In this document: positions 32,741 through 62,863 of the stretch, piece after piece
Layout: every line of letters begins with the position of its first letter
Position numbering within the stretch: position 1 is the first letter of the stretch
Source of the DNA: Elusimicrobia bacterium GWA2_56_46
GTDB taxonomy: Bacteria; Elusimicrobiota; Elusimicrobia; Elusimicrobiales; UBA9959
Direction: 5' to 3'
Length of the DNA stretch: 64,000 nt
NCBI GenBank assembly: GCA_001799575.1
Contig: MGTT01000010.1
Location: 1-64,000, forward strand
Made by a program: the position numbers and the translations under genes
The notes under the pieces: model-generated
What the model saw: the letters and a program-made list of their open reading frames with translations, nothing else
Told to the model about the DNA's origin: nothing
Database searches by the model: none

Positions 32741-32870
32741 GGAAGGATGGCGGCAGGGTAGAGCTGGAGGGGTGCCAGGGCCGGGCCTTTCCGTCCCGCA
32801 GGCCGCCGAGGGAAGCGGAAAGGCCCGGCCCTGGCAGGACCCCGAACCGGCAGCCTGCCGCCATCTTTCC
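32741..32870 (+). repeat. Composite palindromic repeat, copy 1
   Basis: Perfect 20-bp arms 32774-32793 / 32816-32835 around loop TCCCGCAGGCCGCCGAGGGAAG; outer GGGGT/ACCCC with AGG bulge; further outer stem 32741-32757 / 32854-32870. Confidence 0.9.
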
Positions 32871-32973
32871 GTGTAGTGACAGGGCGCCGATATTGCAAGC
32901 CAACTGCAACTTTCAGGCCCCCGCTTTGCTATCCTGCGGAGCATAAGTTGAAATTGACCAGCCTTGCATAAAT

Positions 32974-47989: not shown

Positions 47990-48735
47990 AGAAAGGGTTT
48001 ATGTGTGTATGCATTCTTTTTTTTCCTTTTCCGCTGCGCGCCGGAGGTTTTTCGCTCACGGAACTGGATCTTGGCTCCGGCTGCGGAGTTATGGATTCCT
48101 CCAGGGTCGAAATTCTGCGCGCGTTGGCCGCTTCGACCAGCGTGGATCCGGAGCCGGCCAGAAAAACGGTTAGCCTTTCTTCCCCGGAGCTTTTTGAAGA
48201 GCCTTTTGTGGTTCTCTCTTGTTACGGCGCTCCCCGCGCCCTTGATTATGACGAAATCCGCAGTCTGCGCCTCTACCTCGCTTCCGGCGGTACGATCTTT
48301 GCCAATGACGCTTCGGGCCTGCGCCGGAGCCCGTTCGCGGCCTGGCTGACACGGGCGCTTGAGCTGGCGCTGCCCGAGGCCCCGCTTAAGCCGGCTTCCA
48401 GGGAGCATCCTCTTTTTAAAAGTTTTTTCATGAGCGTGGCGCCGGGGGGCAGATTCGATCTTGAGCGCGAACCTTCCGCCGCCGAATACGGTGGACGCTA
48501 TGCCGTGATATTTTCACGCAATGATCTGCTGGGCGTCTGGCCCAGGGACGCTATGGGGCGGTATCTTTACGAGCCTTCCTCCGGCGGAGAGCGCCGGCGG
48601 CGCGAGGGCGAAAAACTTACTATAAACATACTGATATACGCGCTGACCGGCTCCTATAAACAGGACGCCGTGCATCAGCCGTACATCATGCAGCGCCTCC
48701 GAGAACTTGATGCGGTTCCGGGAGTTAAACGGTGA
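47986..48735 (+). CDS. DUF4159-like exported protein
   Basis: Signal peptide; DYDEIRSLRLYLASGGTIFANDASG; conserved operon position. Confidence 0.75.
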   Translation: MKKGFMCVCILFFPFPLRAGGFSLTELDLGSGCGVMDSSRVEILRALAASTSVDPEPARKTVSLSSPELFEEPFVVLSCYGAPRALDYDEIRSLRLYLASGGTIFANDASGLRRSPFAAWLTRALELALPEAPLKPASREHPLFKSFFMSVAPGGRFDLEREPSAAEYGGRYAVIFSRNDLLGVWPRDAMGRYLYEPSSGGERRRREGEKLTINILIYALTGSYKQDAVHQPYIMQRLRELDAVPGVKR

Positions 48736-50930
48736 AAGTATTTATCGGCGCGAACTGGTATTTTGTAGCGGCGGCGGGCCTGCTTATGGCGGCGTTTATC
48801 CGCGCTCTGAAAAGATCTTCCGGGCTCCCCCCCGCGCTGAGGGTCTTAAGATTCTCGGCCGCGGCCCTTGCGGCCCTGCTTTTAACGCGGCCGTACGCGG
48901 TTTTTTACCGCCAGGTTCCGGTGAAGCCGGTCCTGGCTGTTCTGCTGGACGCTTCGCTTTATATGCGGGAGGGCCCGGCCGGAAAGTCTTCCGGAATTTC
49001 CAAGTACGACCAGGCGGCGGCATGGCTTGGTAAATATCGCGCGGAACTGGGCGGCGTCTCCGATCCGGAGTGCTACGCTTTCTCCGACCGGCTTTACAAG
49101 GTGGATTGTTCTTCCCTCGCGGCAGCCGGTTCCGGCAGCGTCTCTTACTCCGATCTGGGCCGCGCCTTGTCGGAACTGGACGGCGGAGACGGCGCGCGCG
49201 ACGGCTCCTGCCCCGACAAAGTATGGGTGTTAAGCGACGGACTTTCCCTTTCCGGAAAAGCGCCGCCGCTGCCCGCGGGCTGCACGAAAAAAACGGATAT
49301 TGTGGCCGTGGGCGAAACCGTTCCTCCGCGCGGGATCTCCGTGACGCGGTTTTCCGGTCCGCCGTTCGCGTTCGCCCATATTCCGTTCTGGCTTTCCGCC
49401 GCGGTAAGGGTTTCGGGTATGAAAGGTTCCCGTTTTGAGCTGCGGCTTAAGGACGGCGCCGGGAATACGCTTGAGACGCGCAAATATGAGGCGGGCGGCC
49501 AGGATGAAACAGTGATCTCTTCTTTCAGCGTCAGCGCCCCTTCGGTGGGGCGGGCCGCTTATGCGGTCTGCGCCGCGCCCGGGCCGGGCGCGGGGTGTTC
49601 CGCGGCCGGGAAATTACAGGTTTCGGTCATCAGGGAAAAGCTTCGCGTTATGTACCTGGCCGGGCGTCCGTCTTTTGAGTACGCTTTTCTGCGGGATCAT
49701 CTGAAAAGTCAAAGCGGCATAGACCTGGTTTCGTTCATCATTTTGCGCAACCCGGAGGACATGCCGGGCGCGGATGAGCGCGAGCTTTCGCTCATACCTT
49801 TTCCGGTCAACGAGATCTTTCTGCGCGATATTTCGCATTTTGACGTTTTTATCCTCCAGGATTTCGATCTGCGCCGTTTCGCGGCGGACGGTAATTATGC
49901 GGCTTCGCTGGCGGAGTTCGTCAGGAAAGGCGGCGGACTGGCGGTTCTCGGAGGCCCGTCCGCGTTCGGGAGCGGGGGCTATCGCGGGATGGATTTCCTC
50001 AACGCCATGCTTCCGGCCGAAGTGGCGGGCGGGCCTGACTACCGTCAGGATCTTGAGTTCCGGGTTTCGCCCGCGTCGCATACCGCCTCCGATCTTTTCC
50101 CCGGGATGGAAAATAAAGAGCGGTTCTGGGCCGGCGCTCCTCCGCTTAAGGGCGTCAATGTTCTGGGCCCGCTGAAATCCGGGGCGAAAGCGGTCTTTTA
50201 CTATAAAGATCCGGCCGCCGGACGGGACGCTCTTTTTTCCGCAGAAAAGAGTTATGGAAAAGGGCGCGTTATGGTTCTCGCCGGGCCGTCCACCTGGCGC
50301 TGGAAGATGCTGGGCGCCGCGGACGCCAGATATGCGGGGCTTTATTCCGCGTTCTGGGGCCGCACGCTGGCCTATCTGGATGGTTCGCTCAGTCTTGAAA
50401 AAGTGGCGCTTGAATCCCTGCCGCGTTCCGGTCAAAGCCGCGCTTTCCGGTTGAAGGTGCTGAACGCCAATTATCTGCCGCCGTCGGACAGCGACGCGGT
50501 TTCGGTGGACGCTTCGCTGGAGGCGGGCGGGAAAGTGGTTCCGGTGGAGTTTTCCGCGGCGGGGCGCGGCATTTATGAGGCGGCGTTCGCGCCGGCCGAG
50601 TCCGGGCGCAACCGGCTGAGGGTTTCGGTGAAAAGCGGCAGGGAGTATCTGGGTTCGGCGGAGGCGGTGTTCGAGGCGGAGGAGTCTCCGGTTTTCACGC
50701 CGTCCGACGAGGAGGTTTTAAAGAAGACGGCGGCGGGGCTTGGCGGGGGTTATTACCGGCTGGATCCGAAAAAGGGGCCGGAGGAGCTGCTGAAGTCTTT
50801 GCCGCCGGAACGGGAAGGGCGGCGGGAGGCGTCGCGGTTCGACCCGGACGGGTCTTTGGCGGTGATGCTGCTGGCGGCGGCGCTGTTCTTCGCCAGCTGG
50901 ATCCTGGGCCGCCTGAAAGGGCTGCAATAA
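48732..50930 (+). CDS. Large membrane protein with VWA/glutamine-amidotransferase-like regions
   Basis: LAVLLDASLYMREGPAG, LAEFVRKGGGLAVLGGPSAFGSGGYRGMDFLNAMLP; N- and C-terminal TM; ATGA-type overlap. Confidence 0.85.
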   Translation: MKVFIGANWYFVAAAGLLMAAFIRALKRSSGLPPALRVLRFSAAALAALLLTRPYAVFYRQVPVKPVLAVLLDASLYMREGPAGKSSGISKYDQAAAWLGKYRAELGGVSDPECYAFSDRLYKVDCSSLAAAGSGSVSYSDLGRALSELDGGDGARDGSCPDKVWVLSDGLSLSGKAPPLPAGCTKKTDIVAVGETVPPRGISVTRFSGPPFAFAHIPFWLSAAVRVSGMKGSRFELRLKDGAGNTLETRKYEAGGQDETVISSFSVSAPSVGRAAYAVCAAPGPGAGCSAAGKLQVSVIREKLRVMYLAGRPSFEYAFLRDHLKSQSGIDLVSFIILRNPEDMPGADERELSLIPFPVNEIFLRDISHFDVFILQDFDLRRFAADGNYAASLAEFVRKGGGLAVLGGPSAFGSGGYRGMDFLNAMLPAEVAGGPDYRQDLEFRVSPASHTASDLFPGMENKERFWAGAPPLKGVNVLGPLKSGAKAVFYYKDPAAGRDALFSAEKSYGKGRVMVLAGPSTWRWKMLGAADARYAGLYSAFWGRTLAYLDGSLSLEKVALESLPRSGQSRAFRLKVLNANYLPPSDSDAVSVDASLEAGGKVVPVEFSAAGRGIYEAAFAPAESGRNRLRVSVKSGREYLGSAEAVFEAEESPVFTPSDEEVLKKTAAGLGGGYYRLDPKKGPEELLKSLPPEREGRREASRFDPDGSLAVMLLAAALFFASWILGRLKGLQ

Positions 50931-51179
50931 GGTGACGCCGGCTGGTTGGCTTTGGGCTCTGGCTCCGCAGGATAGCAAAGGCGGGGCCTGCCGACGGGCA
51001 ACCTTTTTGCTCCCCTCGGAAACCTGCGGGACAAAAAGGTTGCCCATCGTCACCCGCCGTAAAACTTACTCACTTGATGCTCGCGCGGCTTATCAATTCT
51101 CCGGCGCATCCTCATCTAAAAATATGATATCTTGATCCCGCCCATATTACGATACGTCCGAATTCCCCGCCCACCAGAA
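50931..51179 (-). repeat. Composite palindromic repeat, near-complete copy 3
   Basis: Hairpin arms 50990-51009 / 51032-51051 (18/20), loop TCCCGCAGGTTTCCGAGGGGAG on the minus strand, 3' CTATCCTGCGG, and distal ATCTTGATCCCGCCC...CGTCCGAATTCCCCGCCCACCAGAA. Confidence 0.85.
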
Positions 51180-51287
51180 AGACATAGACTATATAGCCAC
51201 AAGAAAGCCTGCGGGGATTTAGAGCGAATCCCTAAAAATTGTTCAGAACTATATTTAGAAACGGTCCCCCGTCAGTTTAAATGGATT

Positions 51288-52115
51288 CTAAAAATGGCGC
51301 TTTTTTAGTTGTAACTCCGCAAAATCGCGTACCCGTTGATCACTGTCCTGCGCCAGTTGCTCTAAAAGCGTATGTGTAGTACCGGGATGAAACGCAACAG
51401 AACGACGGACAGCCCAGGCATTATCGTGTGCAAGCAAGGGCAGCAGGTCTACAGGCGTGTTGTGATGGGCCGCGACACCCGCCCGCGTGTATTCGTTCTT
51501 ACTTAATGCTCGTTTGCGTAGTAGTTCAGGCGGGGCTTTTGGGTTTTCTACAATCCCCCAGTCAATGAGATACGAGTCTATGTCTCCAAAGGCACGCAAG
51601 ATATGTTCAGGCGTCTTGGGATTGGATAAAACGTTCATGATCACGTATTCATCCTTGCTCTGCGCGAGTCGTTCTAACGTAGCTTGGGAGACATTGGGAT
51701 GCAACGCCACCAACCGCATCACAGCAAGTCCTTTGGAGTTCTTGCCCATTGCAGTTACTGTGCCAAAAAACTTTTGATGGAGTCGGGGATCGTTTTTGCG
51801 TGAGATACGATCTAGAATCTCGGCCGTGGCCAAAGGAGATTGTGCGATGGCAGCGAGCACATACAGGTCATCGCTCCACTTCTGATCATCCAGCAACCCG
51901 TTCAGCCCATTGGCATCAAGATTCGAAACTCGGGTTACCTGCGCCTCACTCCGCACACTACTATCCTCGCAATGAAGGGCGGACAAGAGATATATGAGTA
52001 AAATAAAACTGAGAGTGATTGTCCCCCACACTTGCACTGCACGCAATAACCCGTCGGTAGTTTTATGAGCATCTAGTATTTTTTCCATAAATGACTTAAA
52101 CCTTCCGTAGAACAT
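51288..52115 (-). CDS. HEAT/leucine-rich-variant-like repeat protein, membrane anchored
   Basis: Repeats ALHPNVSQATLERLAQSKDEYVIMNVLSNPKTPEHILRAFG, VAAHHNTPVDLLPLLAHDNAWAVRRSVAFHPGT. Confidence 0.75.
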   Translation of the reverse strand: MFYGRFKSFMEKILDAHKTTDGLLRAVQVWGTITLSFILLIYLLSALHCEDSSVRSEAQVTRVSNLDANGLNGLLDDQKWSDDLYVLAAIAQSPLATAEILDRISRKNDPRLHQKFFGTVTAMGKNSKGLAVMRLVALHPNVSQATLERLAQSKDEYVIMNVLSNPKTPEHILRAFGDIDSYLIDWGIVENPKAPPELLRKRALSKNEYTRAGVAAHHNTPVDLLPLLAHDNAWAVRRSVAFHPGTTHTLLEQLAQDSDQRVRDFAELQLKKRHF

Positions 52116-52658
52116 TTAATCACTTATCCATATCCTCTTAAAGCGGGTGGTGGCCGCATCCCAAATAAAGAAGGAATTTGCACTTTCCGGCTTAAAATAA
52201 TCAATAGCTGCCCCTTTGACTTTCACAACCGATGGTTCATCTTTTTCGCACTTCCAATATCCCTTAGCGCATGCTGTTTTGTATTTGCCAGGCTTTACGA
52301 TGTTAATGCCCATGCTTAAATTAACCTTTGGATATTTTTTGCCCCAGTCGATAGAATCGAGCACTATCCAGCGAAACGCCTCTTTTCTATCCGACAATCT
52401 CACGAGTAATCCTTCACCACTAAACTTAGTGCTTTTCAAAAGTAAAGCCTGGTCCATACGACCATCTCCGTTGAAGTCAGCAACAACTTCCGCGTATTTT
52501 GTAGGCGAATCTTTCCTGATGGCCTCATCAGACAATTCCTCAGTAGTTGGATAACGCCAACCATCAGGCAAAGCAACATCGCTAGCCGCGCCAGGTTGCG
52601 CAATCAGTAAAAATAAAACAAGTGGAAGAACTAACCTATACGTTATATTTATTATCAT
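52116..52658 (-). CDS. Hypothetical exported protein with FG-GAP/VCBS-like motif
   Basis: Signal peptide from MIINITYRLVLPLVLFLL; VVADFNGDGRMDQALLL. Confidence 0.65.
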   Translation of the reverse strand: MIINITYRLVLPLVLFLLIAQPGAASDVALPDGWRYPTTEELSDEAIRKDSPTKYAEVVADFNGDGRMDQALLLKSTKFSGEGLLVRLSDRKEAFRWIVLDSIDWGKKYPKVNLSMGINIVKPGKYKTACAKGYWKCEKDEPSVVKVKGAAIDYFKPESANSFFIWDAATTRFKRIWISD

Positions 52659-52790
52659 TGTCACATCTGCCCCATTTTGTTTTTCAGCAACCTCATTAGG
52701 CTCCGGTGCCAGGTTACTTTTGGCCCCCGCCCAATTCCTTTTCCAGTTCCGCAATAGTGGGGAGGCTGGGTTAAGAGGGGATTAAGAGGA

Positions 52791-52963
52791 GACGTTGTTG
52801 ACTTGTTGACTAACTATTTCCCTTGAGCGCATAATAGCCTCCGTTCTTTTTCAACGAGTCTTGATATCCCGCTCCGCGTCAGCCCCAATTGCCCGCATAA
52901 CGCTGCGCCGTCAAGCTCCTGCTTTCCCTTTGCCTAAAAGTTAGTCAACAAGTCAACAACGTC
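52791..52963 (-). mobile_element. 173-bp element with perfect 25-bp terminal inverted repeats around a transposase C-terminus-like remnant
   Basis: GACGTTGTTGACTTGTTGACTAACT at 52791-52815, exact reverse complement at 52939-52963; interior minus-strand QELDGAALCGQLGLTRSGISRLVEKERRLLCAQGK*. Confidence 0.65.
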
Positions 52964-52980
52964 CCCCGTTTCCGGGTCGA

Positions 52981-53139
52981 AAAAGTCTGACCCCGTCACC
53001 CCTCCATCTAGTCGGTGCCGACCCTCCAACCTTGTTTTGCGTACTTAATTTTCCACTAATACCGGCATTTCAAATCTAAAAATAGAATATCTTGATCCCG
53101 CCCGGATTATGATACGTCCGAATTCCCCGCCCACCAGAA
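52981..53139 (-). repeat. Composite repeat family, partial copy
   Basis: GTCACCCCTCCATCTAGTCGGTGCCGACCCTCC and TCTAAAAATAGAATATCTTGATCCCGCCCGGATTATGATACGTCCGAATTCCCCGCCCACCAGAA. Confidence 0.8.
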
Positions 53140-53323
53140 CACATAGGTTCGAATCCAGTTGACCGCGCTTCCACTTTCGTAAAGTTAACCCCTGTCGTAT
53201 TTTACCTATTTTCCAATGAGAAATGGGTAAATCTGCGGGGGTTTTTCTATGTCTTTTTGCACTTTTCAATCAAGGGGATTCGAACTTTTTAGTCCTATTT
53301 GGGGGTTGGTTAGGCCATACGGG

Positions 53324-54952
53324 TTATTTATCCATATGATCCAGCATTATGCGGAGATAATTTTCCTGTGGAAAAAGGAAAAAATCCGGTATAGGAGGAT
53401 TGCCTTCCAGAGCCTCACCGTCCGGCTTGTAGCCTATACCGGTTGGAAGCCGCACACTGAATTTATCACCGTTTTTTAGCACGAACTCCTCTTCCATGCC
53501 GGAAGGCATTGTTCCGCCGCGCGACGGCAGTCCGAAAACTCTGCCCATGTCATTGTATTTAAAGATGCTTACAAACTGGTCGCAGGAGCTTACACATAAC
53601 GGCCCTGATAGAACGGCTACGTCGAACTTTTTTATTTGTATGTCCGGCTGTTTTTCAGCATTCATCATATCTGCAAGGGTACATTTATGCGGACAATCAT
53701 ATGAATATTGGTAGCGGAAAGATTCTTTAGCGTTCTTATTATTTTCCATATCCTTCGCGAGAAATTCTTTTACAGGGCCTAAATTTTCCGTAGCTTTATC
53801 AAAAATATTCACATCCCCGCGCATGCGGGGCGTATAAACAAAACTGCGTGTAGCCATTCGAAACGGTTTTCTCGCGATAAACTTAAGCAATTCTTCCGGC
53901 AATCCGCCGCCTGTATTTTCTCGCACATCAATCAGCAACCTGCGCCATTTCTGTCGTGCCAGGTATTTGCGCAGTTCCGCCGCATCTATTTGTGAAAGCT
54001 GGTGTTCAGCCGGATAATTAGAGTGAGTGTCTAACACCTGCGGCTTATAGGAAAGGAACGCCGTCCTATTCCAAAGGCGCATCACGGGAAAATAGTAATA
54101 AAAAGAAAAATACCGCAATAAGATCGTCTTACTGACCGGGTCCTTGTAAACGCAATAATTTAATCCGGCAAAATCAAATTTAAATTCCTTGTAATCGCCG
54201 TCATTTTCCATATTTATGCCGCATGGCGATGATTGTTCGACGTCGGGCTTCGGCCGTTTTCTCCATTCAAGCGAAACCTGGACCGTTGTTTGCGCCTCTA
54301 AGTCATAAAATGACATCTCAACCGGCTTGGTAGAGGGCAACGGCACATCTTCGGCATCGCGGCGTGTAAGCCATTTCACTGTTTCAAATTTAAGCAGTTC
54401 GGGCGAATTACTATCGTGCCATTGCAGATATTCGTATTGCAGCGCAGGTAAATCTTTGTCGTTATACTTAATAAGTTCAAATCCCCGTTTTACCTGTGGG
54501 ATTTTGCTCTGTATCACCACTGCGCGCGGGTTATGAATAGCCGAGCCTGCCAGCGCGAGCTTAAATGGGAGTGATAAACTATCATCCTGCGGCTTAAGCT
54601 TATCCGGGACGTTAATGGCAGAATGCGTGTTATGCATGGAGTTTTTGAGAGCAACTAAAGCATAATAAACATCTTCTTTTGTCCGCGCGGATACAAAAAG
54701 CTTTTTAGCGCGTTCCAGTTCGCTGTCCCATGTTGTATCCAGCCTTTTAAAACCTTTTTGAGAAATTATTCCGTTATCGCGGATAACCTGAGCATACGAG
54801 TCGAAGAGTGCGGCCCTGGCATCTGCAACACCTAAAAAGATATCGGCTTCGTCCGCCCATAGAACGGAATGGGGTACCGCAATAACACTTAGCATGAGCA
54901 TAATACGGAATGCCGCATTGAATTTTGTTTCGATTGTGTTGCGATTCTTCAT
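53324..54952 (-). CDS. S41-family peptidase-like exported protein
   Basis: Signal peptide; LLIDVRENTGGGLPEELLKFI, VAVLSGPLCVSSCDQFVSIFKYNDMGRVFGLPSRGG. Confidence 0.8.
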   Translation of the reverse strand: MKNRNTIETKFNAAFRIMLMLSVIAVPHSVLWADEADIFLGVADARAALFDSYAQVIRDNGIISQKGFKRLDTTWDSELERAKKLFVSARTKEDVYYALVALKNSMHNTHSAINVPDKLKPQDDSLSLPFKLALAGSAIHNPRAVVIQSKIPQVKRGFELIKYNDKDLPALQYEYLQWHDSNSPELLKFETVKWLTRRDAEDVPLPSTKPVEMSFYDLEAQTTVQVSLEWRKRPKPDVEQSSPCGINMENDGDYKEFKFDFAGLNYCVYKDPVSKTILLRYFSFYYYFPVMRLWNRTAFLSYKPQVLDTHSNYPAEHQLSQIDAAELRKYLARQKWRRLLIDVRENTGGGLPEELLKFIARKPFRMATRSFVYTPRMRGDVNIFDKATENLGPVKEFLAKDMENNKNAKESFRYQYSYDCPHKCTLADMMNAEKQPDIQIKKFDVAVLSGPLCVSSCDQFVSIFKYNDMGRVFGLPSRGGTMPSGMEEEFVLKNGDKFSVRLPTGIGYKPDGEALEGNPPIPDFFLFPQENYLRIMLDHMDK

Positions 54953-54959
54953 AGTGAAA

Positions 54960-55961
54960 TCAAACACCGTATTTTCCGGTTTTATAGCCGCCGGAGCGTT
55001 TTACTAGGTCAGCGTCCAGTAAAGGTTTCAAAATAAAATGCGCGCCGGGTTTCGTTACTTTCAGCGTGGACATTATTTCCTGTATGCCGCGGGGGGCTTC
55101 TTTCAGGAGGCCCAGCAGTCGCTCCTGATTCTTGGTTATTGAAATACCTTTGCCGCCTGTAAGCGCGCGGACGGAGTCTATACGCTTCCATGTACGCTCA
55201 AGGGCTTCAAGCACTGTCTCCGCCGAGTATTCCACCCAGCCGGAAATATCTCCCCCCTGCGTCTGAACGTTGTTCAAAGCCCGATAATAGGCCATCCTGT
55301 CTTCAAGAAAAACCTCATCTACCGCGAATATGTGGTTGGCATCAAACTGCTTGCGATAAAGTTCCCAGGTTGCAAGCGCACGGCCTACGCGGCCGTTGCC
55401 GTCGCCAAAAGGGTGGATATACTCAAATTGATAATGCAGGATGGCGGAACTTATCAGCGCGGGCCAATCCTTACCGGTGCCATTAAGCCATTCGCATAAT
55501 TCCTCGGTTAAATACGGGACAGAAGCAGGCGGAGGCGGCGTGTGGTTGCCGACAAAAACCTTATAATCCCGGAAAGCACCCACAGGCCCCCGATCCAGCG
55601 CATTTTTTTTACCTATAATAGCATGGAGCTTCAGAATTTGAGGCACCTTTATGGCCGCAATATCGGAGTTTTTTCCAATAAACCGCAGGATCTCGAAATA
55701 GTTCAGGATTTCCTGCACCGCACGCGGACTGGCCCCCGGCACGGTGCCGCCATCTGCCAGAGTTTTTACTTCATGGAGCGTCAGGGGATTGCCTTCTATG
55801 GCGGTAGAGCCATGCGTCTGCCTGGCCAAGGCCTCACGCTGCATATCGGGCAGCCAGCTAACGCCTATAACGGCTCCTTGTATCTTGGACTTGAGCTCGG
55901 CAGCCTGCTCGATTACCTTGAGAAGGTGCTGGGTTGGGCTGAATTTAGGGTTAAAAGCCAT
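54960..55961 (-). CDS. Fic-family protein (putative AMP-transferase) with N-terminal inhibitory helix
   Basis: Fic motif HPFGDGNGRVGR; inhibitory-type motif HGSTAIEGNPLT; C-terminal winged helix. Confidence 0.95.
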   Translation of the reverse strand: MAFNPKFSPTQHLLKVIEQAAELKSKIQGAVIGVSWLPDMQREALARQTHGSTAIEGNPLTLHEVKTLADGGTVPGASPRAVQEILNYFEILRFIGKNSDIAAIKVPQILKLHAIIGKKNALDRGPVGAFRDYKVFVGNHTPPPPASVPYLTEELCEWLNGTGKDWPALISSAILHYQFEYIHPFGDGNGRVGRALATWELYRKQFDANHIFAVDEVFLEDRMAYYRALNNVQTQGGDISGWVEYSAETVLEALERTWKRIDSVRALTGGKGISITKNQERLLGLLKEAPRGIQEIMSTLKVTKPGAHFILKPLLDADLVKRSGGYKTGKYGV

Positions 55962-56067
55962 AAACACAGTATAGTAGATAGTAAAGTATAAGTAAAGTAA
56001 TACGTAAAGTCCCCTATGGGCGGGTAAATGTACGCTGTATCATAACAAAGCCAACCAGCCCGGAGTT

Positions 56068-56451
56068 TTATTTTGTTTTCAGGGCGGCGCGGAGGGAGGT
56101 GAAAAGGCGGAGATAGTCTTTCAGGCGGCCGTAAATATCTTCCGCTAATTTTTCGTTGTAGGTGTGGACGGAAAGATTTCTGTCTTCCAGCATTTTCAGC
56201 CACGAAGGATCGTCGGCGATGAGACCGAGGCTGAAGCCCTGCTCGAAACAATCCCTTGGGGAACGGCAGACTATGCCCTTGCCGCCCAAAAAATCTTTCA
56301 GGCATTTCCAGGCAAGTTCAAATGTAAGTTCAAAACGTTTGATGGCCGAGTCGCGGTTGGCCACGGTGGCGGGGGCGGTCAAGATCTCGGACAGGCGTTC
56401 CAGGGACTGGCCGAAAGAATTCAGTTTCTCACCGTCATAAAAGTTTTGCAT
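56068..56451 (-). CDS. HepT/HI0074-type HEPN protein (nucleotidyltransferase partner)
   Basis: FELTFELAWKCLKDFL, RNLSVHTYNEKLAEDIY (Rx4H-type). Confidence 0.9.
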   Translation of the reverse strand: MQNFYDGEKLNSFGQSLERLSEILTAPATVANRDSAIKRFELTFELAWKCLKDFLGGKGIVCRSPRDCFEQGFSLGLIADDPSWLKMLEDRNLSVHTYNEKLAEDIYGRLKDYLRLFTSLRAALKTK

Positions 56452-56725
56452 GGCTTAGAACCTCCCGGCGGAATCCGGCGTCGGTTTTGCTTAAATCCAC
56501 TATTTCTATTTTCCTCAGCGTCGGAATAGCATTAACCTCGTCGCGCAAGCGGAGCAGGGTCAGGTCATCCAGCGGTTCGGCGCCAAACAGCCCGATATCT
56601 ATGTCCGAAGCCGGATCCGCCGCGTCCCTGGCCTGTGAACCGAAAAGATAAATTTTAAAATTTCCCTCCGGCAGACGCCGCCGGAGAATGGCGACTGTTT
56701 CCGCGATTATTTCCTGGACGGTCAT
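56435..56725 (-). CDS. MntA-type minimal nucleotidyltransferase
   Basis: IYLFGSQARDAADPASDIDIGLFG (GSxAR...DxD). Confidence 0.93.
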   Translation of the reverse strand: MTVQEIIAETVAILRRRLPEGNFKIYLFGSQARDAADPASDIDIGLFGAEPLDDLTLLRLRDEVNAIPTLRKIEIVDLSKTDAGFRREVLSHAKLL

Positions 56726-56784
56726 TGCATCTAATTATAACAAAAAATTCCGGATCAAAAGGGCGGGGCGCGGACTTTTCAGCT

Positions 56785-56952
56785 TTGATGGGCGGGCATG
56801 GTAAAAAAAGGCTGCCCGTCGCCACCCCTCCCAAACTATCGGGGCCGACCCTCCATCCTCACTTTCCCGGGTTATGTTCCTCCGGCTAAATTCCCGGTGT
56901 TTCCTGTTTAAAAATATAATATCTTGATCCCGCCCGGACGACAAAATAACGA
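56785..56952 (-). repeat. Composite repeat family, degenerate copy with shortened hairpin
   Basis: AAAAAAAGGCTGCCCGTCGCCACCCCTCC, TATCGGGGCCGACCCTCC and TTTAAAAATATAATATCTTGATCCCGCCCGGA shared in order with the other copies. Confidence 0.75.
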
Positions 56953-57052
56953 GAATTTGGCCATAAAACCGGGATATGTGTTTAATTGGAAGCGGCTTTT
57001 TTGTAATACTTTACTTGTTTAAACGTATTAACTACAGGAACAAGAGAACATA

Positions 57053-57553
57053 ATGAGTTTTGAAGAGCTTTACGATAAATACTTTGGTCGGGTTTATAAC
57101 TATATCCTTTACAGGGTCATATCCCCGGATATTGCCGATGACATGGTTTCACTGGTCTTTGAAAAGATCCTGCATAAATACTCAAGCTTCGACCCGGCAA
57201 AAGCCACCATTGCAGAAGCCTGGATATTTGCTATAGCCAGGAATACACTGAATGATTATTTTAGACGCAAAAAAATACTGAACTGGCTTTCCATGTCAGG
57301 TATGGAAGACCACATCGAATCCGGAGAATCACTGGAAACCGACGCTGAAAAGCATGAAGTAACCGCCAAAGTACTCAAAGCGGTTGAACAGCTTTCAAAT
57401 CCGGAACGGGAAATAATAGCCTTGAAGTTCACTATGGATATGACAAACCGCGCCATAGCCGGGGAAATGGGCCTGAGCGAAAGCAATGTGGGCGTAATCT
57501 TATTCAGGGCTATGCGAAAAATTAAAGAGTTGATGGAGCCGGAGATTTTATGA
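57053..57553 (+). CDS. ECF-type RNA polymerase sigma factor
   Basis: Region 2 YDKYFGRVYNYILYRVISPDIADDMVSLVFEKIL; region 4 LSNPEREIIALKFTMDMTNRAIAGEMGLSESNVGVILFRAMRKIKEL. Confidence 0.93.
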   Translation: MSFEELYDKYFGRVYNYILYRVISPDIADDMVSLVFEKILHKYSSFDPAKATIAEAWIFAIARNTLNDYFRRKKILNWLSMSGMEDHIESGESLETDAEKHEVTAKVLKAVEQLSNPEREIIALKFTMDMTNRAIAGEMGLSESNVGVILFRAMRKIKELMEPEIL

Positions 57554-57885
57554 CTGATTTTAAAGAGGAAAATTTTGGCGAACACAATCGCTTGGCCGTT
57601 ATACTGAGGGCAACCGATTTCAGCAGCAAAAGTAAAATAAAAATTTCGCTAAAAAACCGGCTTTTAAGTAAAGCTGCAAATGAGGAAAAGCGGTCTTTCA
57701 CTATATGGGCATGGCTTCTCCCTGCGGCAGCGGTCACCCTGGCCGCGTTGATGCTAACGGTCAATATAAACCATAAGGAAGTTGAACAATCGCCATATTA
57801 TCAGGCGCCTGACGCTGATTATAATATTTACGGTAATTGCGGCAGACAGGGACTTGAGGACTATTTGTCCGCCCCACGCTTCTAA
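57550..57885 (+). CDS. Small single-TM protein, candidate anti-sigma factor
   Basis: 4-bp overlap with the sigma gene; one TM (TIWAWLLPAAAVTLAALMLTV). Confidence 0.7.
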   Translation: MTDFKEENFGEHNRLAVILRATDFSSKSKIKISLKNRLLSKAANEEKRSFTIWAWLLPAAAVTLAALMLTVNINHKEVEQSPYYQAPDADYNIYGNCGRQGLEDYLSAPRF

Positions 57886-57896
57886 AGGAGACAGTT

Positions 57897-59024
57897 ATGA
57901 AAAAGAAAATACTGATATCGGTGGTCATGGCCTGCGCGGCTCTTATTTGCTTTCTAATTTTCGGCAATATCAAAGATGATACATCTATGTCCTTCGTAAA
58001 CGACGAATTGGTAAAAGGGAAATGGCAAACCGTGGATTATGTAAAAAGTCCGGACAACTTTAATCCGGCTGTCCAGAACTGGGACGGCGATCTTTTCCTT
58101 AAAGGCCTGACTTTCCTTGACGACGGAAAGATGTTCGAATCCTGGTGGACCTGGACCAAAGGCTTTGTAATGTGTGGAAATGAAAAAACCGCATCAAAAT
58201 ATATCATTAAAAAGCTTAATGGCGCAGAATATCTGTTTATGGAATGGAAAACCAGGGACTATACTGTTTTTCACAAACCACCGTGGTATTATGTGCTAAA
58301 AAAGGGTTCATACCTGGGTGACGGCGCGGATATAATCCGTGACAATATCGATCTCCCTTTCGTCAATGATCCAGAGGCGCTTGGCAGCTGGAAATCCGTG
58401 GATTTTGTCGAAACCCCTGATAGATTTTCCCCGCGTAAAAAAAACAGGCGCGATGATCTATACTTAAAAGAACTGGTCTTTCTTGCCGCTGGTAAGACTC
58501 TTGACGGCTGGCTGACATGGACCAAAGGTATGCTCATAGCCAAAGGCAACAAGACTGCAAGTAAATATGCGATTAAAGATATTGCCGGCAGTAAATATAT
58601 GTTCCTTGAATGGAAGAGCGGGGATTACACTATAAGGCACCGGAAACCGAATTATTATGTCCTCAAAAAAGTCTCCGATATAAGAACCGATAATATAAAT
58701 CTACCCTTCCAGAACGATCCACAGGTGGTTGGTATCTGGAAAAGTAAGGATTTTGTGGAAAAACCGGAAGATTTCGGCCCAACCACCAGGACCTGGGCCA
58801 GAGACTTATATCTGAAAGAAATGATCTTCCAGGCCGGCGGCAAAGGCGGCAATCCGTGGTGGACTTGGACCAAAGGTGTTGTTATGAACAGCGGCGATAA
58901 GACCGCCAGCGCCTACATCATCAAGGATATAGGCAGCGCGAAATATATGTTCCTTGAGTGGAAAAGCGGCGACTACATCTTCCGGGGGGCCAAGCCGTAT
59001 TACTATGTGCTCAAAAAGCAATAA
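57897..59024 (+). CDS. Exported protein with three tandem ~110-aa repeats resembling the C-terminal domain of some BlaR1-type M56 proteins
   Basis: Three copies of PFVNDPxxxGxWKSxDFVExPxxFxP...DLYLKE...WWTWTKG...KTASKYxIKD...YMFLEWKSGDY...YYVLKK. Confidence 0.85.
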   Translation: MKKKILISVVMACAALICFLIFGNIKDDTSMSFVNDELVKGKWQTVDYVKSPDNFNPAVQNWDGDLFLKGLTFLDDGKMFESWWTWTKGFVMCGNEKTASKYIIKKLNGAEYLFMEWKTRDYTVFHKPPWYYVLKKGSYLGDGADIIRDNIDLPFVNDPEALGSWKSVDFVETPDRFSPRKKNRRDDLYLKELVFLAAGKTLDGWLTWTKGMLIAKGNKTASKYAIKDIAGSKYMFLEWKSGDYTIRHRKPNYYVLKKVSDIRTDNINLPFQNDPQVVGIWKSKDFVEKPEDFGPTTRTWARDLYLKEMIFQAGGKGGNPWWTWTKGVVMNSGDKTASAYIIKDIGSAKYMFLEWKSGDYIFRGAKPYYYVLKKQ

Positions 59025-59121
59025 AACCAAGGCGACAACGTATGAATAAGAAAATAGCGGTAATAATTTTGGTGTTAATACCCCCGGTTCTTTAGCCAAA
59101 GCCGACCGGCCCGGCGTTACA

Positions 59122-59178
59122 TTATTTTGTTTTCAGGGTGGCGCGGAGTTCGGTGAAGAGGCGGAGATAGGGCTTCAG
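59122..59178 (-). pseudogene. Remnant of a second HepT-like gene 3' end
   Basis: Minus-strand LKPYLRLFTELRATLKTK* matches LKDYLRLFTSLRAALKTK* of the 56068-56451 gene. Confidence 0.75.
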
Positions 59179-59185
59179 GATAAAT

Positions 59186-59551
59186 TTATTTGGAGGCTTC
59201 CAGCAGGGTGATGCGGCTTTCGTGGTTCTGCAGCTTGTCATTCTGTTCCATCAGCATCTGCCCGCGTTCCATGTCTTTTCTTCTGTAGTCCCTGGCTTCG
59301 CCCGCGAAACTGTCTATCGCGCCGAGTATCCTGCTGATGTCGTCTTTTGTGGCCATGGTTTCATGGATATCGCGAATGTCGTCCTTGATATGCAATATGT
59401 CAATGGTATTGGTTTTTACTATGTCTTCCAGCCGTTTAATGTCCGACTTTAATTCCGTTTTGAGAGAGCCTATTTCAGAACGCAACCCGGTTTCGGAAAG
59501 TTTTATGTCGTTTTTGGTGGCCGGCTGGTTTTCCCATTTATTATCTGCCAT
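59186..59551 (-). CDS. Small coiled-coil protein
   Basis: 121 aa; SETGLRSEIGSLKTELKSDIKRLEDIVKTNTIDILHIKDDIRDIHETM. Confidence 0.7.
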   Translation of the reverse strand: MADNKWENQPATKNDIKLSETGLRSEIGSLKTELKSDIKRLEDIVKTNTIDILHIKDDIRDIHETMATKDDISRILGAIDSFAGEARDYRRKDMERGQMLMEQNDKLQNHESRITLLEASK

Positions 59552-59656
59552 AATTTCTTTCCCCCACTCTCTTCTTCCATAATTTTACAAGATTTCAGTT
59601 AACCGCGTAAGGGCCGAAAGGCCCATCTGGGATAGAGCGCATACGTGCGCGAGGCG

Positions 59657-60313
59657 TTATCTTTCTGCTATGCCGGTTCCCAGGGCTTTGTGGAGGTTTG
59701 AGAGGAGGCGGTAGCAGGCCGCTATCGCCGCGTCAACGCAGGACAGCGAGAACGGGGTAAGAGTGTCGTCCTCGTTCAGCGGAACATGGTAAAGGCAGCA
59801 GTATTCGGCTACCTCAGCCCTTGCTTTCATAAGCGCCTCGTCTATCACCCGGTCGTTCGGCGCGGCGTTCATTTGTTCGGCCAGGGGTTGGAAGCGCAAT
59901 CTCGCGTATGTTTCCATGATCCGCCGTTCCGCATCGGCGGCTCCGGCCCCGGCTTTGCGCGCCTCGCCGGTCAGCGATACGGGCCTGAGAGCGGAGAGCC
60001 TTTTCTTTATCAGTTCTTTGCTGCCGGTCATGCCCGCGCAGACCATTCTGAAATCCTTGTCGGAGATGAGTTTGTCGAGCGCGTCCTTGAGTTTCGCTAT
60101 TTCTTTTTCTGTGATCTTCCCTTTGCCGAGTTGCACGTCGAAGCTTTCGCAAGTTTCTTTCAGCGTTTCTTTTTGTAAATTATACAGGTGTTCCGCCATG
60201 TTCTGGAGGGAAGTGATAAAGAACTCTTTCTGACTGGCATATGCCGCTGGGATTTCGCCGGTGAACGCCCTCAGGCTGGCAATAAGCATCAGTTGATGTT
60301 CCATCTTCGCCAT
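59657..60313 (-). CDS. Hypothetical helical protein
   Basis: 218-aa ORF with consistent codon usage; no recognised domain. Confidence 0.6.
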   Translation of the reverse strand: MAKMEHQLMLIASLRAFTGEIPAAYASQKEFFITSLQNMAEHLYNLQKETLKETCESFDVQLGKGKITEKEIAKLKDALDKLISDKDFRMVCAGMTGSKELIKKRLSALRPVSLTGEARKAGAGAADAERRIMETYARLRFQPLAEQMNAAPNDRVIDEALMKARAEVAEYCCLYHVPLNEDDTLTPFSLSCVDAAIAACYRLLSNLHKALGTGIAER

Positions 60314-60365
60314 ACCACATTATATCATTGCCGCGATCTATCGGCGGCAATCCATAAACGTTGTT

Positions 60366-60400
60366 TGGATTCCTGCCAACAGATTGCAGGAATGACAGAA
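60366..60400. repeat. Short palindromic repeat (same class as 31146-31179)
   Basis: TGGATTCCTGCCAACAGATTGCAGGAATGACAGAA. Confidence 0.75.
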
Positions 60401-60467
60401 AAATACGTGAGCTTTTGGGGTAATAAGGGATAAAGCCGGACGACCATCATGTGCGTAAGCTTAACGC

Positions 60468-60617
60468 GGGGTGCCGGGGTGAGGCCTTTTCGACCCAGCA
60501 GGCCGCCGATGGAACGCGAAAAGGCCTCACCCCGGCAGGACCCCGCTTTACTATCCTGCGGTACAATAACCCAAAGCCCATTAGGCCACGCACCTTTGCC
60601 TGGCGTTACATTATATT
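60468..60617 (+). repeat. Composite palindromic repeat, copy 2
   Basis: Perfect 20-bp arms 60473-60492 / 60517-60536, loop ACCCAGCAGGCCGCCGATGGAACG, outer GGGGT/ACCCC with AGG bulge, then CTATCCTGCGG and GGCGTTACATTAT. Confidence 0.9.
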
Positions 60618-60646: not shown

Positions 60647-62863
60647 ATGGAGCCGGGAGAGCAGGGCATTAAGAAGTGGCTTTTCGATTCGCCGTTTCCG
60701 GCGGGGGCGCTGCTGTTTGTTTCGGCCTGCCTGGTGTGGCTCTACTGCCTGCCGCCGGGACTGGCGCCTTACCGCGACGCCGGCGAAATGGCCTGCGACG
60801 TCTATACCCTGGGCATAGCCCACCAGCCCGGCTACCCGCTTTATATCCTCTCCGCCAAACTGGCCTCGCTCCTCCTGCCCGGTAATTTCGCCTATAAACT
60901 CAATCTCTTCTCCGCCCTGGCCGGCCTTGCCGCCCTGCTGTCCCTCTATTTCCCCCTCGCCGCCCGCTTCGGCGTGCTGCCCGCTTTCGCCGCCGTTCTG
61001 CTGTTCTCGCTCAATTTCACCATGCAGACGGTTTCCAGCGTTTCCGAGATGTACGCTCTTAATATTCTTCTGGCGGCGGTTTTGCTTTGGCTGGCGCTGT
61101 CGTTCGAGGACGTCTGGAGCCGGCGACGGCTGTGGCTTGGCGCCTACCTGCTGGGCCTTGCCATGACCAATCGTATGGACATCGTTCTGATGGCTCCGGC
61201 CTTGGCTCTTGCCGTCTGGCCCGGATTAAAAACCTCGCCTTTTCCGGCGGCGGTAAAAACCGTCTCCGGGGCCGCGCTATTCTGGCTGGCCGGGTTTTCG
61301 CTGTATCTCTATCTCCCGATCCGCTCCGGGACATTTCCGCTTTTTGACTGGAGCCATCCGGCCGACCTCGGGACTTTTCTTTCGGTCATCACGCGCAAAA
61401 GCTACGGTTCGACTCTGGATCTCATCTCCCGGAATTACGCCGCCGGCGAGCTGTTCTGGCCTAATATGAAACATTACGCCCTTCATCTGGTCCGGAATTT
61501 CAATTTCGCGCTTGGCTTCGCTTTAGCGGGGCTGCTCTCGGAATTCTATCAGAACCGCCGGCGCGCCTTATGGATGCTCGCGTTTTTCATAGTGCCGGGC
61601 CCGGTGTTCCTTTACATGGCCAATATGCCGCCCAATCCTCACGCTCTGGCCATCGTGGAGCCGTATTACCTCCTGCCGGATATAGCGGTGCTGTTCTGGA
61701 TCGCCGCCGGGCTGGCCTATTTTTGGAGGGATGAGGGATTAGGGATGAGGGATGAGGACCGAAAAAATCTCCCCACGTCTTTCTCCTCATCCCTCATCTT
61801 TCATCCCTCATCCTTACGGCCCTGGGCCGTCGCCGCCGCTGCGGCGGCGTGCGTCGTCCTGGCCGCCGCGCGGAACTTGCCGTACTCCAACCGGCGGACG
61901 CTTTTTGCGGCGGAAGACTGGGCGGCGGACGCCATGAAGAGCGTTCCGCCGGGAACTTCCCTTGCGGCCAAGAAAGACGTGCAGCTTTTTACGCTTTGGT
62001 ATCTTCAGACGGTGCGGGGCTTGCGGCCGGATCTGAAGATCGTGGCGCAGGGCCTCAGCGGGTCGCCGTGGTACCGTAACTCCATGGGTCTGAGCCGGCC
62101 GGAACTGAAGCTTTTTAATCTTAACTCCGGCGGAGCGGCTGAATGGGAAAATTTCAGCAAATCCAATCCCGGGGGCTTTTACGCCACCCTTGACGCCGAA
62201 CTGCCGGCCGGGTTGGAAACCGCGCAGCGCGGACTCGTGAATGCGCTTTACGATAAAAGCGGGCCGTACGATCTGTGGCGCTTTTATAATTTCAGATGGC
62301 TGAACGGGAAGTATAATGATTTTTTCGCGAAAGACCTGGGCGCCGCGTATGCGTCGGGCATTGTGGCGCGCGCGGCCTGGCTCAACGGCAGGGGCGGTTT
62401 AACCGGGGAGGAAGCCGGGCGGCTTGAACTTGCGCGCGTAATGGATCCCGATAATCCGGACGCGCCCCTTTATCTTGGCTTTTATTACGCCCGTCTTAAC
62501 GACTGGGTAAAGGCCGGAGGATATTTCCGACGATCCGCGGACGTTTATGAGCGTCTCCTCGGCCTTGCCGGGGAGTATTACGCCCTGCCGGAGGCTAAAA
62601 ACGGCCTGCGCAGGGCCGGAGCCTACGCCTGGCTCAATTACGGCGTGGCGCTGGAGAAGACTGGCGATACGCCGGGTGCCGAGAATTCCTACAGGCGGGC
62701 GCTGGCGGCCGATCCGGGAATGGCCGAGGCTCATTTCAATATGGCGATACTTTATTGGACTAAGGATCCCAACCGGGTCTATGAAGAATTGAAAGCCGCC
62801 CTGCGGCTCGACCCCAACCACCAGCGGGCGCGGTATTATCTGAACAGAACCAAACTACAGTAA
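60647..62863 (+). CDS. DUF2723 membrane glycosyltransferase-like protein with C-terminal TPR
   Basis: LPPGLAPYRDAGEMACDVYTLGIAHQPGYPLYILSAKLASLL, multi-TM, C-terminal TPR AENSYRRALAADPGMAEAHFNMAILY. Confidence 0.9.
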   Translation: MEPGEQGIKKWLFDSPFPAGALLFVSACLVWLYCLPPGLAPYRDAGEMACDVYTLGIAHQPGYPLYILSAKLASLLLPGNFAYKLNLFSALAGLAALLSLYFPLAARFGVLPAFAAVLLFSLNFTMQTVSSVSEMYALNILLAAVLLWLALSFEDVWSRRRLWLGAYLLGLAMTNRMDIVLMAPALALAVWPGLKTSPFPAAVKTVSGAALFWLAGFSLYLYLPIRSGTFPLFDWSHPADLGTFLSVITRKSYGSTLDLISRNYAAGELFWPNMKHYALHLVRNFNFALGFALAGLLSEFYQNRRRALWMLAFFIVPGPVFLYMANMPPNPHALAIVEPYYLLPDIAVLFWIAAGLAYFWRDEGLGMRDEDRKNLPTSFSSSLIFHPSSLRPWAVAAAAAACVVLAAARNLPYSNRRTLFAAEDWAADAMKSVPPGTSLAAKKDVQLFTLWYLQTVRGLRPDLKIVAQGLSGSPWYRNSMGLSRPELKLFNLNSGGAAEWENFSKSNPGGFYATLDAELPAGLETAQRGLVNALYDKSGPYDLWRFYNFRWLNGKYNDFFAKDLGAAYASGIVARAAWLNGRGGLTGEEAGRLELARVMDPDNPDAPLYLGFYYARLNDWVKAGGYFRRSADVYERLLGLAGEYYALPEAKNGLRRAGAYAWLNYGVALEKTGDTPGAENSYRRALAADPGMAEAHFNMAILYWTKDPNRVYEELKAALRLDPNHQRARYYLNRTKLQ
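61725..61813. repeat. GGATGAGG-type short repeat with inverted partner inside the DUF2723 gene
   Basis: GGAGGGATGAGGGATTAGGGATGAGGGATGAGG ... CCTCATCCCTCATCTTTCATCCCTCATCC. Confidence 0.85.

Follow-up and report, generated by a model that had tools for sequence, protein, structure and literature searches.

The segment at 50931-51179 of the window (the whole stretch of 64,000 nucleotides analysed, contig C10:1-64000 of a genome, G000, of 2.66 Mb in 30 contigs) is a nearly complete copy of a modular mobile repeat family, previously uncatalogued as far as our searches reach. Its copies are dispersed, share a common left border and were gained at orthologous sites, and their hairpins covary and carry a strand bias. 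With a probability of roughly 60%, we interpret them as a non-autonomous mobile intergenic family with a conserved left end often behind stop codons, a looser right end and a swappable hairpin with complementary arms, recognised through its folded minus strand. Literature searches found no published description of such elements in Elusimicrobiota.

Copies of the repeat and host range

The 249-bp query 50931-51179 was searched against its own genome, as the first-pass annotation had proposed. It gave 50 matches over many contigs (E=2.3e-127 for the window copy itself, E=9e-46 for the best other copy), with full-length or near-full-length relatives at C28:194124, C28:203787, C16:89372 and C30:50203. 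A covariance model of the hairpin core pointed to 48 distinct places in this genome, its 65 matches including opposite-strand re-matches of the same hairpins. In the window, the signature CCGCAGGATWGTAAARNNGGGG was found with at most 3 mismatches at 3 sites, versus 0.01 expected (a 300-fold excess). Together, the 50 matches and the signature excess mean that this is a dispersed repeat family and not a chance resemblance. The hairpin is indeed one module of a repeat of about 250 bp, as first described. The features in the window are the following.

50931-51172, + strand: most complete window copy, module A short allele, from left end to right-end block (self-search; relatives G000:C28:194124 and C28:203787)
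50932-50958, + strand: left end GTGACGCC..GGCTTTGGGCT, directly behind the TAA with which the upstream gene stops at 50928-50930 (44 aligned left ends, several genomes)
50965-50990, + strand: conserved 5′ foot CCGCAGGATAGCAAAGGCGGGGCCTG (3 window sites versus 0.01 expected; conserved across genera)
50992-51009, + strand: hairpin 5′ arm, variable in sequence, structure kept (covariation, double changes in 12 of 20 helix pairs)
51032-51049, + strand: hairpin 3′ arm (covariation)
51051-51089, + strand: conserved 3′ foot CACCCGCCGTAAAACTTACTCACTTGATG..CGGC
51098-51111, + strand: TCTCCGGCGCATCC, the complement of the left end, with which it forms a closing helix (full-length copy fold)
51137-51172, + strand: right-end block CCCGCCC..GATACG..AATTCCCCGCCC (right-end probe)
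52974-53132, + strand: 3′-half copy with hairpin 3′ arm, nested-module remnant and right-end block (sequence search)
56803-56938, + strand: 3′-half copy with hairpin 3′ arm, nested-module remnant and part of the right-end block (sequence search)
56018-56069, - strand: mini-copy that has lost the hairpin and has its two ends fused, at the NTase_sub_bind stop codon (left-end alignment)
59085-59120, - strand: left-end fragment GTAACGCCGGGCCGGTCGGCTTTGG (left-end alignment)
60433-60609, - strand: inverted copy at the other border of a 9.7-kb island, with a partial REP hairpin close to its left end (self-search, hairpin model)
32746-32965, - strand: copy made of the left part of module A, then an intact module B hairpin with a 12-bp outer stem (signature search, hairpin model)
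50931-60609, no strand: accessory island between inverted copies, encoding an LRV-repeat protein, an S41 peptidase, Fic, an NTase_sub_bind/nucleotidyltransferase pair and an ECF sigma factor (absent in a congener)

In the orientation of the window copy, module A starts with the left end GTAACGCCGGGCT.ATGGGCTTTGGGTTAA and the 5′ foot CCGCRRGATGCCCAGTCGGGG (or CCGCAGGATAGTAAAGCGGGG), continues with N-CCTG, the hairpin and CACCCC, and closes with CTCC/GCG-GTAAAACTTACGC, ATTCCCCGGCGCTTCC, an AT-rich stretch and CCCGCCCAAATTATGATACGGCGTAATTACCCGCCC. Element length in the genus of the window is about 235-300 bp, and no coding gene was found inside the copies. The recurring blocks noticed in the first-pass annotation were all recovered: GTCACCCxCC with CCACCCCTCC at 51050, 52995 and 56822, the ..TATCGGGGCCGACCCTCC blocks at ~53010 and ~56838, and TAAAAATA..ATATCTTGATCCCGCCC at 51117, 53077 and 56909, continuing as GATACGTCCGAATTCCCCGCCCACCAGAA in the first two. 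The sequence ascribed to the other end, GTGACGCCGGCTGGTTGGCTTTGGG, lies at 50932 (+), and ends resembling it were located at 56069, 59120 and 60609 (all -). Two points need amending: the copies at 52974-53132 and 56803-56938 are the 3′ halves of nested copies, and 56018-56069 is the mini-copy. The 5′ half of the 52974 copy is replaced by a near-perfect 31-bp inverted repeat (GACGTTGTTGACTTGTTGACTAAC) at 52788-52966, with 117 bp between its arms. Rfam, at gathering and permissive thresholds, returned only a tRNA in the window, the best sub-threshold matches lying far under the cut-off.

The repeat is restricted to one family of uncultured Elusimicrobiota in a phylum-wide sample of 296 genomes, where the hairpin model matched 0 of the 269 unlisted genomes. 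Within the family, 12 of 59 genomes were matched by this model at E≤0.01 (with 14 matches in G002), 24 of 59 by a left-end probe, and 30 of 59, in 9 of 13 genera, by a right-end probe. When one genome per species was scanned, the signature appeared in the Elusimicrobia bacterium MAGs RIFOXYA12_FULL_51_18 and OS_PC_MetaG.mb.28; kinship with these would put the genome of the window in Elusimicrobiota. Outside Elusimicrobiota the signature was met only in two mutually homologous Rhodobacter records and one Eubacterium; the rest of the element is missing there, so these matches are attributed to chance. Two element patterns searched in viral contigs gave no exact match.

Borders, modules and strand bias

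Forty-four distinct left ends, from several genomes, start at the same base, typically after TAA and one base (consensus (TAAK)GTAACGCC-GGCTTTGGG), and several upstream reading frames terminate in the element's own G-TAA. The right end lies near GATACG..AATT.CCCGCCC. Many copies stop at CCCGCCC; in several others homology runs on for 30-80 bp, which makes the right terminus less sharply defined. Alignment, which had been suggested as a means to define true termini, therefore yielded a common border on the left and a fuzzy one on the right. The annotation's statement that most copies sit at gene ends divides in the same way: 17 of 43 left ends border directly on the end of an ORF (at least 80 codons, same orientation), versus 7.8% of random intergenic points, while only 4 of 44 right ends do so. 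In the same test, 9 of 32 composite-MITE ends (see below) abut ORF ends.

The hairpin is exchangeable. A second module, B, has the layout (outer stem)-GCTGCMAGTTCGGGG-hairpin-CACCCCTCCAACTATACC-(outer stem′); it stands free at several loci (L012, L016, L018) and lies intact and concentric inside module A at G000:C28:84336 and G002:C17. Such nesting explains the odd ‘..CGGGGCCGACCCTCC’ block as the 3′ side of a nested module B hairpin. In other genera the same feet surround unrelated hairpins of 100-230 nt, and a few copies carry the left end on both sides (L126, L132, L137). The right-end block also terminates an otherwise unrelated element of ~700 bp in genus g4. Thus blocks occurring independently, with no common boundaries, were not found for the left end and were found in part elsewhere, as the right-end block of the g4 element and the free-standing module B. 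Compared with the view taken in the first-pass annotation, the element proves more modular and has a less sharp right terminus.

The ~700-bp element of g4 is itself non-coding and conserved, with several hairpins (L100, L101, L103, L106, L109, L112, L114, L115), and was also found in G014 of g12. Recurrent ‘ORFs’ in it are inconsistent in frame and look like chance reading frames of the repeat. On the CCCGCCC side of the repeat, the right end is followed by a promoter-like block of ~80 bp (GGTCGCAGCCAAACTTATAAAAATTTGCGCC..GATTTGGGGCATAATATCC) at L319, L320, L146 and L033. A tRNA-derived, SINE-like right end was considered from CCCGCCCACCA in two copies and discarded, as other copies give no support.

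The fold persists even where the hairpin sequence is entirely replaced. Of 957 cells in 31 short hairpins, 97.9% are paired, and double changes are found in 14 pairs (123 cells); none of 500 shuffles reached the observed covariation, and sliding the partner by 1-3 columns lowered pairing to 42-61%. The closing helix of TCTCCGGCGCATCC with the left end is too invariant for covariation testing and rests on the fold: folded as minus strand, a full-length copy closes its own ends (GCGCCGGGG with CCCCGGCGUUAC) with z=-3.6. For the window copy, z is -2.6 on the minus strand and -1.8 on the plus strand.

Imperfect pairs are unevenly distributed between the strands. Across 63 hairpins of several genera, plus-strand reading gave 32 distinct A-C events versus 5 G-T events (binomial p=7e-6), a p-value weakened by the relatedness of the hairpin copies, which makes the counts partly non-independent; the direction is consistent across clusters, at 18:3 for A-C over G-T when counted by cluster. 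By RNA energies, 31 of 34 long hairpins are more stable as minus strand. No bias was seen in control inverted repeats from these loci (52:45). In the short hairpins alone the bias is slight, with 7 versus 5 in the outer 12 pairs and a more stable minus strand in 15 of 29. As the imperfect pairs are G-T on the minus strand, the folded strand is antisense to the upstream gene, which argues against a 3′UTR or terminator RNA and for folded minus-strand ssDNA or an antisense RNA. Inspection by eye for a promoter of a minus-strand transcript revealed no clear sigma-70 match.

Gain at orthologous sites and neighbouring elements

In G003, of the same genus, the orthologs of the two genes that frame the island (gene1, 48732-50930, and gene2, 60647-62863) are 66 bp apart with no element between them, and in several other genera they adjoin on one contig. 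In G000, one copy marks the beginning of the 9.7-kb island, exactly at the gene1 stop, and an inverted copy at 60609 marks its end; in G002 the corresponding gene1 stop reads TAG|GTAACGCCGGGCT. What was gained at the window site may have been the island as a whole, the repeats being passengers or having arrived later. Two other sites also show gain. At G000:C20:2061, the orthologous gene ends of G001, G003 and G034 lack the element. At G000:C20:36828, G005 and G034 lack it, and G000 and G002 both have it but differ in the hairpin module that it contains, which suggests that hairpin cores were exchanged at a standing site. In genus g4 (G071:C65; L191, L233), a family copy lies upstream of the ortholog of the gene at 60647-62863, as it does at 60433-60609 in the window; this coincidence reflects either a common hot spot or a copy of ancient date.

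No copy was seen to contain a transposase, and none could be linked to the element ends; the copies are hence non-autonomous. We conclude that their mobile and non-autonomous nature is well supported. The earlier suggestion, a non-coding mobile element of which each locus had shown only a portion, agrees with the common borders, the orthologous sites that lack copies and the lack of any gene inside.

Other mobile sequences keep company with the repeat. At least five long copies that combine A and B lie between clear TIRs of a classical MITE (CCYAAATCCTCCGATAA, also given as CCYAAATCCTCCGATAAG), with 5-bp duplications read by eye from the ends (ATCTC, TGCGC, TAAAT, AGCTC, TGATT, AGTTC). A true REP (AAAAGGTGCCTGGCACCTTTT and GGCAAAGGTGCCAGGC..) stands beside a RAYT gene at G000:C6:83386 (L167), and the same REP has repeatedly landed at module A left ends (L003, L009, L010, L017, L022, L027).

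A common operator-promoter, CGACAnnACGnTGTCG followed by a TATACT-like -10, is found upstream of most RAYT genes in this family. It also precedes ORF6N-like, HigB/RelE-like, TcmP-like and HNH genes (names read from their N-termini), the loci including L161, L163, L165, L166, L175, L176, L185 and L189, as well as L048, L100, L142, L060, L006 and L168. These genes look like one regulon of accessory genes, perhaps SOS-like.

Proposed explanation, alternatives and known systems

In the explanation that we favour, the conserved left end would often settle directly behind stop codons, the right end being conserved and less sharp. The arms of the central hairpin would be free to vary as long as they stay complementary, and hairpin modules would be exchanged and nested, A containing B and B containing the hairpin. 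Since the copies have no gene, a putative recombinase acting in trans must move them and would insert them behind stop codons. The form recognised would most likely be the folded minus strand, as ssDNA or as an antisense transcript, to which the strand bias of G-T versus A-C mismatches points, and some copies have also been carried by the ordinary TIR-type MITE. A narrower proposal makes the minus strand a structured guide or handle for the putative recombinase that inserts behind stop codons, either a transcript of the bridge-RNA or omega-RNA kind or an attC-like folded single-stranded site, with the swappable hairpin as specificity or identity module; we consider it quite unlikely. Identity with a group II intron, HEARO or omega RNA was rejected, as no match supported it.

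The placement of left ends at gene ends and the compensatory selection on structure would also suit a host-domesticated RNA element at the 3′ end of genes, acting as a terminator or mRNA 3′ barrier, which would have spread by duplication and been retained because it is functional. Yet the strand that tolerates wobble is complementary to the mRNA, the element is missing behind orthologous genes of relatives, and no U-tract follows the hairpin on either strand: where an intrinsic terminator has a GC hairpin followed by a T run, here the hairpin is followed by CACCC/CACCCC (+) or CAGGCCCC (-). This origin is therefore unlikely. That the repeats are REP-type elements mobilised by the RAYT (Y1 tyrosine) transposases of the same genomes is improbable. 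In the family, 9 of 10 genomes have RAYT genes, many module A copies have a RAYT-type REP at their left end, and REPs likewise favour positions behind genes (PMC3733652). However, one RAYT gene of G000 is flanked by a different short REP (GGTGCCTGGCACC), and when the flanks of 30 RAYT loci were searched with probes A, B, C, DE and R2, only R2-type REPs recurred; neither modules A and B nor the right end gave a match there, apart from one weak DE/B match at L172. G002 has no PF01797 (Y1_Tnp) match yet contains its 14 model matches, gene loss or an assembly gap being possible there. The unpaired GTAG/CGTC tag of a REP, a palindrome of 20-40 bp, is missing too, as the hairpins span 58-200+ nt and have AGTCGGGG / CCCCTCC at their feet.

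The long A+B copies between clear TIRs could also mean that module A is mere debris, a broken piece of the composite MITE with its 5-bp duplications. But those TIRs are missing from the majority of A copies, which begin with a left end of their own and in many cases lie behind a stop codon; complete copies with intact left ends exist, and A occurs in genera without these TIRs in the loci read. Module A alone shows no visible target-site duplication, and no convincing TIR pair in most copies (a TIR only in L126/L132/L137). This idea, largely refuted, is very improbable, and the trans-mobilised intergenic family remains our preferred reading.

Among known systems, the closest analogue in style appears to be the pneumococcal BOX, a resemblance that would be architectural only. 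BOX elements of Streptococcus, arranged as boxA-boxB(n)-boxC, are likewise modular, non-coding, structured, variable between conserved ends, enriched 3′ of genes and without a transposase of their own (PMC3049150). They differ in sequence and phylum, and in having a tandem boxB array where the Elusimicrobiota element has an inner hairpin in concentric nesting that is freely swapped; the latter element also shows strand-biased wobble. REP/BIME sequences with RAYT (PMC2817692, PMC3733652) are palindromic, dispersed, located behind coding regions and possibly mobilised as single strands, whereas the present repeats are much longer, vary in stem sequence, lack the GTAG/CGTC tag and do not lie beside RAYT genes, and a separate true REP exists in the same genome. 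Like bacterial MITEs (review PMC10969869), they are small, without coding capacity and dispersed, and some copies lie inside one with TIRs and 5-bp duplications, but most module A copies stand alone with no convincing TIR pair or target duplication. Integron attC sites also lie directly behind a stop codon, with a variable central palindrome between conserved ends. The bottom strand of attC is the folded, active one. In contrast to attC, the repeats are scattered in both orientations, mixed within the window, and form no arrays. The core boxes RYYYAAC/GTTRRRY are absent from their ends, as the listed left ends read [AGT]GTAAC and the right end has no GTT; the positions before AAC being unlike RYYY, identity with attC was rejected.

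The present analysis adds a lineage-wide family of structured mobile repeats to Elusimicrobiota. Its traits are unusual: nested, exchangeable hairpin modules, near-perfect compensatory change of the arms, and wobble tolerance confined to one strand, an indication that the element works as a folded single strand. With the empty sites, both the target rule (insertion behind stop codons) and the mobilising enzyme can be searched for directly.
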